Assembly: GCA_029973955.1 (NCBI GenBank)
Contig: JARKQJ010000078.1
Location: forward strand, 1-64,000
Source of the DNA: Paludibaculum sp.
GTDB taxonomy: Bacteria > Acidobacteriota > Terriglobia > Bryobacterales > Bryobacteraceae
Direction: 5' to 3'
DNA: 64,000 bases
Under the pieces are notes generated by a model. The model was not told the DNA's origin. It made no database searches and worked only from the letters and a program-made list of their open reading frames with translations. This document shows, in pieces, positions 47,611 through 50,082 of this stretch (position 1 is its first letter; every line of letters begins with the position of its first letter). Position numbers and translations under genes: made by a program.

Positions 47611-48249
47611 GTGGCGACAGACCTCATAGAGATAGATCAGGAACAACCCTCCGCGGAGGCCATCGAGCGCGCCGCCGTGGCCATCCGGCGTGGGCAGCTT
47701 GTGGCGCTGCCGACCGACGCGCTCTACACCCTGGTGGCCGACCCCTTCAACCTGCACGCCGTCGGGCGCGTCTTCGCCGCCAAAGCCCGCGAAGCGCACC
47801 GCTCCCTGCCGCTGCTGGTGAGCGACTTCATGATGGCGGAAGACCTGGTGACCGAACTGCCCACACGGTTCTACCTGCTGGCCCGGCGCTTCTGGCCCGG
47901 ACCGCTCACCATCATCGTGCCCGCCTCGGCGAAGGTGCCGTTGAAAGTGACCGGCAACACCGGCCGGCTCGCTATCCGGCAATCCCGCTCGCGCGCTGCC
48001 ACCGAACTCATGGAGTACCTGGGCCAGCCCCTCATCTCCACTTCCGCCAACGTCAGCGGGCAACCCACCTGCCGCTCCGGCATCGAGGTCTTCGGCATGA
48101 TGGACGGCCGCGTGGACCTGGTGCTCGATGGCGGCCCTTGCCTGGGCGGGGGCTCCACCACCGTGGATATTACCGAACCCTACTGGCGCCTGATCCGCGC
48201 CGGCAGCATTCCCGAAAAGGAGATTGCCGATTGTTTGAAAGGCGCTTGA
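47611..48249 (+). CDS. tsaC: L-threonylcarbamoyladenylate synthase (Sua5/YwlC/TsaC)
   Basis: The 212-residue protein makes threonylcarbamoyl-AMP for t6A tRNA modification. It has AAVAIRRGQLVALPTDALYT, FAAKAREAHRSLPLLV, FWPGPLTIIV, GRLAIRQSRS and LISTSANVSGQP, the full Sua5/YrdC set. It starts with GTG at 47611, 30 nt after the previous stop; the length is that of the short TsaC form (no Sua5 C-domain). Its last 19 nt overlap the next gene. Confidence 0.93.
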   Translation: MATDLIEIDQEQPSAEAIERAAVAIRRGQLVALPTDALYTLVADPFNLHAVGRVFAAKAREAHRSLPLLVSDFMMAEDLVTELPTRFYLLARRFWPGPLTIIVPASAKVPLKVTGNTGRLAIRQSRSRAATELMEYLGQPLISTSANVSGQPTCRSGIEVFGMMDGRVDLVLDGGPCLGGGSTTVDITEPYWRLIRAGSIPEKEIADCLKGA

Positions 48250-49025
48250 GCGGCCTGCTGCTGGCCGCGGCTATGACGCTGCCGCTGATGGGAGACGTTT
48301 CGCCCCGCGCCGGCGGCCTGGGAAGGCACTGGAAGGCCCGTGACTGGACTCCGTCTTTCCAGTTGGACGGCACCTGGGAGCGCGTGGGAGACTCGAACCG
48401 TTTTCGCACGGTGTACTCGGACCGCGTCACCCGCCGCAACGTCAACTGGGATGTGACGGTGGTCTCCGTCACCGCGGAGACCGTCACCTTCAAAGCCACG
48501 CTCACGCTCGACGGCGGCCCCAAGACCTATACCTTCACGGGACGGATCCAGGCCGACGGCAGAACCATCCGCGGCAAGGGCGGCTGGTGCACGAATCCCG
48601 GCGCCTACTGCGGCTTCGAAGTGGTGGCGGACTGGCCGGTGGCCGGCCAGCCGGCCGCTGCCAGAGTGGGCGCATCCGTTGCCTCCCTGCCCGTCGCCAA
48701 GGGCTCCACGCTCCCGGGCCGGGCTACGCCAGGCACGCTCTGGAAAGTGCGCGACTACACCGCCGGCGGCTTCGACTACGAAGGCACCTGGACAATTCAG
48801 GATCAAACCATCCGCTTCGACTACCGCGAGCGTTCCACCGGCGCCAAGGCTGGCGGAACCATGGACCTGTTGCGTTGGGACGGCTTGAAAGTGGAGGTCC
48901 GGAATCTGGCAGCATCCCGTTTCTACCTGGGTACCCTGCAGGCCGACGGCAAGACGATTGTCGGCACCAGTCCCTCCTGCAAAGGCCGGCCAAACTGCGG
49001 CTGGAGCGCGACCATCGAGAAATAA
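48231..49025 (+). CDS. Exported protein with two repeated domains
   Basis: The 264-residue protein starts at TTG 48231, with AAGGAG 8 nt upstream, and overlaps the tsaC end by 19 nt. A signal peptide (FERRLSGLLLAAAMTLPLM) is followed by two similar domains, about 33-140 and 171-264. Shared blocks are WKARDWT/WKVRDYT, GTWERVGD/GTWTIQDQ, IQADGRTIRGKG/LQADGKTIVGTS and the Cys pair CTNPGAYCGF/CKGRPNCGW. I do not know the family. The paired cysteines would be oxidised outside the cytoplasm. The cluster context is otherwise housekeeping. Confidence 0.75.
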   Translation: MFERRLSGLLLAAAMTLPLMGDVSPRAGGLGRHWKARDWTPSFQLDGTWERVGDSNRFRTVYSDRVTRRNVNWDVTVVSVTAETVTFKATLTLDGGPKTYTFTGRIQADGRTIRGKGGWCTNPGAYCGFEVVADWPVAGQPAAARVGASVASLPVAKGSTLPGRATPGTLWKVRDYTAGGFDYEGTWTIQDQTIRFDYRERSTGAKAGGTMDLLRWDGLKVEVRNLAASRFYLGTLQADGKTIVGTSPSCKGRPNCGWSATIEK

Positions 49026-49080
49026 AGGCGCCGGAACAGCGCGGCGAGCGGATTGTCTGGCGCGCCTCGCTCCGGCAGGA

Positions 49081-49086
49081 TATCCT
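49081..49086 (+). promoter_or_regulatory. -10 box of the 6S RNA gene
   Basis: TATCCT; a start about 8 nt downstream (49094) agrees with the 5' end of the closing stem of the RNA. No clear -35 at normal spacing. Confidence 0.45.
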
Positions 49087-49093
49087 GGACGAT

Positions 49094-49290
49094 AGGAGCG
49101 TTCCTGCGAAGCAGGTCACCGGTTTCCATAATTGATCCGATGCAAAGTGAATCCGGAGCTCGACTCGTACTTTGGCGCTGGTGAGCATGCTCCGCAAGGA
49201 GAAGCCTGAAGGCGCCCGGCGAGCTCCCCCCGTGTAACCGCTCGGGGTCGATTCCGAAGCCGGAACGGCTGTTGTGGTGCGCTCCACTTC
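49094..49290 (+). ncRNA. ssrS: 6S RNA
   Basis: The gap before ymdB holds the 6S RNA core: GGTGAGCATGCTCC at 49180-49193, then loop GCAA and GGAGAAGCCT at 49198-49207, nearly the same as the apical part of E. coli 6S RNA. Nested helices support it: GGCGCT 49174-49179 with GGCGCC 49211-49216; GGAGCTCG 49155-49162 with CGAGCTCC 49220-49227; GAATC 49149-49153 with GATTC 49250-49254; closing GGAGCG 49095-49100 with CGCTCC 49280-49285. On the 3' side of the bubble a small hairpin (CCCCG 49228-49232 with CGGGG 49243-49247) is present, as in known 6S RNAs. 6S RNA binds sigma-70 RNA polymerase and lowers its activity in stationary phase. Ends are estimated. Confidence 0.85.
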
Positions 49291-49299
49291 CTTTCCCCC

Positions 49300-50082
49300 A
49301 TGAGAATCCTCTTCATCGGCGATATCTTCGCTTCGCCCGGAAGGCGCATTGTCGCCGAGAACCTCCAGCCCCTGATCTCCGAACATCGCATCGATCTGGC
49401 GATCGCCAACGTGGAGAACTCCGCCGGCGGTTTCGGCGTCACGCCCAACATCGCGCAGGAACTGCTCTCCCTCGGCCTCGATGTCCTCACCACCGGCAAT
49501 CACGTCTGGGACAAGCGGGAGATCTATGACTATCTCGACCGGGAACCGCGCCTGCTGCGTCCCGGCAACTACGCCCCTTCCCTGCCCGGCTCCGGCGTCT
49601 ACACCGGCAAAGCGCGCAACGGCGTGCCCTATGCCGTGATGAACCTCCAGGGACGCGTGCACATGTCCGCCATCGATTGCCCCTTCGCCAAGTCCGATGA
49701 ACTCGTCGCCGCGCTGCCGGCCGATGTGAAAATCCGCTTCCTCGACTTCCACGCGGAAGCTACCAGCGAGAAGGTGGCCATGGGCTGGCACCTGGCCGGA
49801 CGGGCCACGGCCGTCATCGGCACGCATACGCACATCGCCACCGCCGACGCGCGCGTGCTTCCAGGTGGAACGGCCTATCTGACCGATTGCGGCATGACCG
49901 GCCCTTACGATTCCGTCATCGGAGTGGAAAAGGCCACCGTGCTCAAGAAGTTCGTCACCCAACTGCCCATGCGTTTTGAAGCAGCCAAAGGCATGGTGGA
50001 ACTGCGGGCGGTGATCGTGGACGCCGATGAAACGAGTGGAGCGGCCACGGCCATCACTCCGCTCTGCATCGCCGGCCAGTAG
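49300..50082 (+). CDS. ymdB: YmdB-type metallophosphoesterase (TIGR00282)
   Basis: The 260-residue enzyme has FIGDIFASPGRRIV, NVENSAGGFGVT, TTGNHVWDKREI, DFHAEATSEK and GTHTHIATADARV, the metal ligands of the YmdB family, which hydrolyse 2',3'-cAMP and other phosphodiesters. It is soluble. No ribosome site precedes the ATG; instead a C/T-rich stretch links it to the 3' end of the 6S RNA, 10 nt away, so its mRNA probably comes from readthrough or processing of the 6S transcript. Confidence 0.93.
   Translation: MRILFIGDIFASPGRRIVAENLQPLISEHRIDLAIANVENSAGGFGVTPNIAQELLSLGLDVLTTGNHVWDKREIYDYLDREPRLLRPGNYAPSLPGSGVYTGKARNGVPYAVMNLQGRVHMSAIDCPFAKSDELVAALPADVKIRFLDFHAEATSEKVAMGWHLAGRATAVIGTHTHIATADARVLPGGTAYLTDCGMTGPYDSVIGVEKATVLKKFVTQLPMRFEAAKGMVELRAVIVDADETSGAATAITPLCIAGQ

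Follow-up and report, generated by a model that had tools for sequence, protein, structure and literature searches.

We found that the locus at 49095–49285 of the forward strand is a genuine 6S (SsrS) RNA gene, ordinary in kind and about 191 nt long, and we put the probability of the reading as a whole, namely that this acidobacterium, probably of the Bryobacterales, has a single detected 6S RNA gene working by the mechanism known for the 6S family, at about 97%. In the window, that is, the whole 64-kb stretch of DNA analysed here, a cmscan search with Rfam 15 matched the 6S model RF00013 to positions 49098–49283 (+) with 51.4 bits (E = 2.5e-7) and over the full model, from position 1 to 187 of 187. 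The complete 6S fold was therefore recovered at 49094–49290, where the original prediction had placed it, and the family's gathering score of 46.4 bits, proposed there as a check, was exceeded. This was the sole match in the window above the gathering score of any Rfam family, and an RF00013 search of all contigs of the host assembly (6.5 Mb in 282 contigs, 94.5% complete, with 6.05% contamination) returned it as the single 6S match. The outermost pair is G49095–C49285, giving a paired span of 191 nt, as compared with the approximately 180–200 nt of a 6S RNA, and the locus has the closing stem, the large central bubble with a hairpin in its 3' strand, the apical arm and the compensatory changes of the RF00013 family. 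Since 6S RNA, which restrains RNA polymerase, is a widespread RNA known throughout bacteria, its presence here is, of course, expected, and what we describe adds one more member to a known family, for which the homology, the covarying structure, a recurrent promoter element and a recurrent gene linkage have been established.

The margin of the RF00013 score over the gathering threshold is only 5 bits, and, unlike the family norm, the sequence is clade-specific: RF00013 finds a 6S RNA in 29 of 61 genomes (the host's own and 60 relatives), with only 8 of these 29 matches, the host's included, above the gathering score and 21 under it. We aligned 26 of these 29 loci with MAFFT (alignment A1; L024, L025, and L028 were left out) and built from this alignment a clade covariance model, R1, which finds 6S in 34 of the 61 genomes and scores the host locus, itself one of the 26 training sequences, at 183.3 bits. 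A clade-specific model able to recover 6S copies lying under the threshold of Rfam is a modest gain of this work. In A1, 88.8% of the cells of a 42-pair structure are standard pairs, as compared with 40.8–51.2% after a shift of the 3' partners by 1–3 columns, and 24 of the 42 pairs are changed on both sides, against a shuffle mean of 13.4 and with none of 500 shuffles reaching 24. Given that the members of A1 had been chosen by the 6S model and that the structure was partly derived from A1 itself, a second set was made. In this case, 80 ymdB loci were fetched by protein similarity alone and then searched with R1, giving 29 matches in the 493,510 bases around the 80 ymdB genes, all of them with E ≤ 1.1e-10, and the host locus together with 19 of these 29 matches was aligned with MAFFT as A4, which shares only the host locus with A1 and omits 4 matches with the same sequence as an A1 member, 2 near-duplicates, and 4 distant matches. 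On the structure of the host locus, 92.6% of the A4 cells pair, as compared with 41.6–54.8% after sliding, and 21 of the 42 pairs are changed on both sides (shuffle mean 8.1; 0 of 500 shuffles reach 21). The places in A4 were located with R1, and this set is therefore not wholly structure-free, position beside ymdB not having been an input; both A1 and A4 are biased towards the structure to some degree. The helices are thus kept by compensatory changes in two alignments of relatives, a conservation that had been named beforehand as a check on the fold. In addition, four blocks recur exactly in most of the 51 distinct sequences that A1 and A2 comprise: TTGATCC at the 5' edge of the bubble (43 sequences), GGGTC on the 3' side (45), GGTG[AT]GC (42), and AAGCCT (45).

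For the forward strand, folding gave the long hairpin expected of a 6S RNA, at -81.9 kcal/mol, with a z-score of -2.1 and 9 of 200 shuffles folding equally well, and since the folding energy only modestly beats the shuffles, the case for 6S rests on homology and covariation and not on energy. The closing stem, supported by covariation, pairs its 5' strand at 49095–49107 with its 3' strand at 49274–49285, and an internal helix follows in which 49120–49126 pairs with 49256–49262; in this helix, five of the seven pairs are changed on both sides in A1 and likewise in A4, and 72.9% (A1) and 90.0% (A4) of the cells are paired. At the edge of the central bubble lies the conserved strand UUGAUCC (49132–49138), which pairs with 49245–49251, and the 5' strand of the bubble itself runs from 49139 to 49154. 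The 3' strand of the bubble carries a hairpin at 49228–49247, present in the minimum-energy fold, where 49228–49232 pairs with 49243–49247, an alternative arrangement in place of the innermost pairs formed by UUGAUCC; this hairpin also covaries, with three of the four pairs tested changed on both sides and 80.8% of the cells paired. The apical arm (49155–49227) is made of the helices 49155–49162/49220–49227, 49175–49179/49211–49215, and 49190–49193/49198–49201. The nested helices and the 3'-side bubble hairpin of the original prediction are accordingly both there. A further hairpin of the form CCTGC-N3-GCAGG has the potential to form within the 5' strand of the closing stem, at 49103–49115 and in relatives. 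As a release conformation, it was too weak to be claimed, with at least five pairs in 22 of 45 sequences against 12.5 expected.

The gene that follows on the same strand, at 49300–50082, is ymdB, a metallophosphoesterase gene identified by PF13277 (338.6 bits) and TIGR00282 (274.7 bits, cut-off 254.15), and it starts 12 nt past the end of the 6S model and 14 nt past the last paired base, in agreement with the earlier claim that the 6S RNA sits directly before ymdB. The comparison with the gaps before ymdB in relatives, also suggested beforehand, revealed that this placement recurs: 22 of the 29 RF00013 loci (host included) are followed by a ymdB in the same orientation, and of the 29 R1 matches beside ymdB genes, 28 have their ends 10–90 nt ahead of the start of ymdB (median 21), the remaining one (L108) having the order zapA-6S-rny-ymdB. 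The linkage, though common, has exceptions: 51 of the 80 ymdB loci gave no 6S by R1, with some loci ending a short way upstream of ymdB, and no ymdB was found within the fetched flanks of 7 of the 29 RF00013 loci, where the neighbours are other ORFs. Among the papers listed from the open-licence literature on 6S RNA, Acidobacteria, and zapA, RNase Y, or ymdB, none dealt with a 6S-ymdB linkage to judge by title or abstract opening.

A locus placed so closely before a start codon might instead be read as a cis-acting structured leader of ymdB, that is, a riboswitch or attenuator merely resembling 6S, and the recurrence of the tight spacing, which makes it hard to fit in a promoter of ymdB's own, would fit such a leader. 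We consider this very improbable, because the RF00013 match spans the full model, because the RNA is found without ymdB in the fetched flanks at the seven loci mentioned above, and because, among the best 30 of the 206 RF00013 loci in a phylum sample of 297 genomes (in which 6S was found in 206 by RF00013 and in 145 by R1), zapA was recognised beside 6S in 27 and rny in 17. With the locus taken as a 6S RNA gene, a bolder proposal is that in the Bryobacteraceae the 6S would be the obligatory 5' leader of the ymdB mRNA, with the closing stem and the pyrimidine-rich tract behind it working as a leaky stop, so that every ymdB transcript would be a 6S read-through and the phosphodiesterase would be tied in cis to a global polymerase regulator, a 6S-less sister family then being a natural knockout; we regard this as a speculative and rather unlikely arrangement.

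As in E. coli K-12, the 6S gene here lies immediately 5' of a protein gene on the same strand; unlike the zapA-ssrS-fau locus of E. coli, the gene downstream is ymdB and not fau, the distance to it is 12 nt from the end of the 6S model as compared with 75 nt between ssrS and fau, and the host zapA sits on a contig other than that of the 6S. One study (PMC7641849) describes a dicistronic ssrS-FAU1 transcript of E. coli K-12 that is processed into mature 6S and, for beta- and gamma-proteobacteria, arrays of the form ZapB-ZapA-ssrS-(FAU1)-EVE; according to another (PMC9130861), no 6S synteny extends across the bacteria as a whole, and ygfA is often found next to the gene. In our phylum sample, ymdB was seen directly in 3 of the best 30 of the 206 loci, which span only 1.5 kb on either side. 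The rny of L108 encodes RNase Y (475 bits, cut-off 454.35) and its zapA was recognised by PF05164; a locus of gp2 (L084) has the order zapA-6S-ymdB, in two others (L081 and L089), where R1 gave no match, zapA stands ahead of ymdB, and rny precedes ymdB in L079 (Peptococcaceae) and L099 (Nitrospinota). RNase Y was found above the cut-off in none of the 61 genomes (the host's own and 60 relatives), the best score in the host genome being 20.2 bits. The order zapA-6S-rny is frequent in other acidobacteria, and with no RNase Y above the cut-off in any of these 61 genomes, the 6S-ymdB order looks derived by the loss of rny. The simplest history from gene order would be an ancestral zapA-6S-rny-ymdB that lost rny and was then separated from zapA, and this proposed course of change at the locus within the class, from zapA-6S-rny-ymdB to 6S-ymdB, is another modest gain.

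Upstream of the 6S, the -10 box expected at its 5' end is TATCCT at 49081–49086 (+), backed by a positional test across relatives, with a predicted transcription start at about 49094–49095. A hexamer with at least four of six matches to TATAAT occurs 5' of the 6S in 47 of 50 related sequences, the host included, as compared with 8.8 by shuffling, and these hexamers end 3–9 nt ahead of the base just 5' of the usual GGAGCG, in sequences that are related and not independent. The 50 sequences come from 57 places, namely, the 28 ymdB-adjacent R1 matches and 22 of the 29 RF00013 loci (the host locus among them), with L005, L008, L022, and L026 omitted as duplicates and L012, L025, and L028 as partial matches. 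A consensus scan of 48900–49450 found no two-box sigma-70 promoter and no convincing -35 box, and in the same interval no terminator was found between the 6S and ymdB, the only two terminator-like sites being on the reverse strand at 49028–49046, upstream of the 6S. A pseudogene, or a GC-rich fold arisen by chance, for which the modest folding z-score and an RF00013 score near the gathering threshold might be adduced, is the least credible reading of all, strongly contradicted by the compensatory changes in A1 and A4, and also by the conserved blocks kept in 42–45 of 51 distinct sequences, the recurrence of the -10 box in relatives, and the R1 score of 183.3 bits, albeit from a model having this locus among its 26 training sequences.

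The gap that holds the 6S gene is bounded by an ORF ending at 49025 and by the ATG of ymdB at 49300; two longer mechanical ORFs, 48587–49135 (+) and 48724–49962 (-), reach into or across it, with no evidence for genes. The bounding ORF (48138–49025), which lies between tsaC and the 6S and codes for up to 295 aa, is without a Pfam or NCBIfam match and has 34–75% identity over the aligned part in five loci of the same genus (L005, L008, L014, L016, and L019). On the other side, the tract after the closing stem (49286–49299 and its counterparts in relatives) is pyrimidine-rich, with 71% pyrimidine and 35% T in the raw composition of 444 bases, counted in the 37 of 50 sequences having a recognised stem end. 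There is no obvious ribosome binding site 5' of ymdB in the host locus.

With regard to the best-known 6S RNA, the locus shares with E. coli K-12 ssrS (NC_000913.3) the apical block GGTGAGCATGCTC...GAGAAGCCT and a CCGAT at the edge of the bubble. The resemblance of the apical block, on which the original prediction had been founded, held up well, with 27 of 32 aligned bases identical, one 3-nt gap, and a local score of 30, above all 1000 shuffles (mean 16.4, highest 28). When E. coli genomes were searched by blastn with the 194-nt block, no match appeared at E up to 10, and the similarity is therefore confined to short blocks. The host CCGAT aligns onto the E. coli CCGAT that ends at ssrS position 44, and this U44 is the known start of the E. 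coli product RNA; on this alignment, its equivalent here would be U49141, within the 5' strand of the central bubble, and the predicted product RNA would begin AUCGGAUCAA, opposite approximately that base.

Judging from the family, the central bubble of the long hairpin would mimic an open promoter, and the 6S RNA would bind the housekeeping RNA polymerase holoenzyme as growth slows, a predicted binding after which the polymerase may copy the 5' strand of the bubble into a short product RNA from about U49141, with the release of the 6S as the outcome; the role of product-RNA template is predicted here from the CCGAT shared with E. coli. Transcription of the 6S would begin just past the -10 box, and the primary transcript probably continues into ymdB, given the 12 nt from the end of the 6S model to ymdB and no terminator found between them, with the 6S then presumably cut or trimmed out, as has been reported of E. 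coli ssrS-fau. Polymerase binding, the product RNA, co-transcription, and processing are thus steps that we infer for this 6S.

In the host's own family, R1 finds the 6S in 32 of 37 genomes (the host's included), and in another family of the same class (f8), it is found by R1 in 35 of the 35 genomes listed and by RF00013 in 30 of them. In the case of the sister family f3, of the same order (G038 and G040–G056), R1 found it in none of 18 genomes; at E up to 10, the best R1 match in f3 had E 0.479 and was not convincing, and these 18 are among the 25 genomes in which RF00013 at E up to 1 gave no 6S. The ymdB gene is present in 17 of the 18 f3 genomes, and the 260 nt upstream of it in these 17 showed no convincing 6S by eye; 15 of the 18 genomes are 93–99% complete. 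We suggest f3 as a candidate for a lineage-wide loss or an extreme divergence of 6S, and an apparent absence of this kind from a sister family, itself a third modest gain, is testable. The own-family genomes without an R1 match are G015, G017, G031, G033, and G001. In the last of these, which belongs to the host's genus, the 5' part of the 6S abuts ymdB directly and the remainder is missing (L211 = G001:C18; R1 E 0.334), either by an internal deletion or by an assembly error across a strong hairpin, and the position of the ymdB start codon reads CTG.
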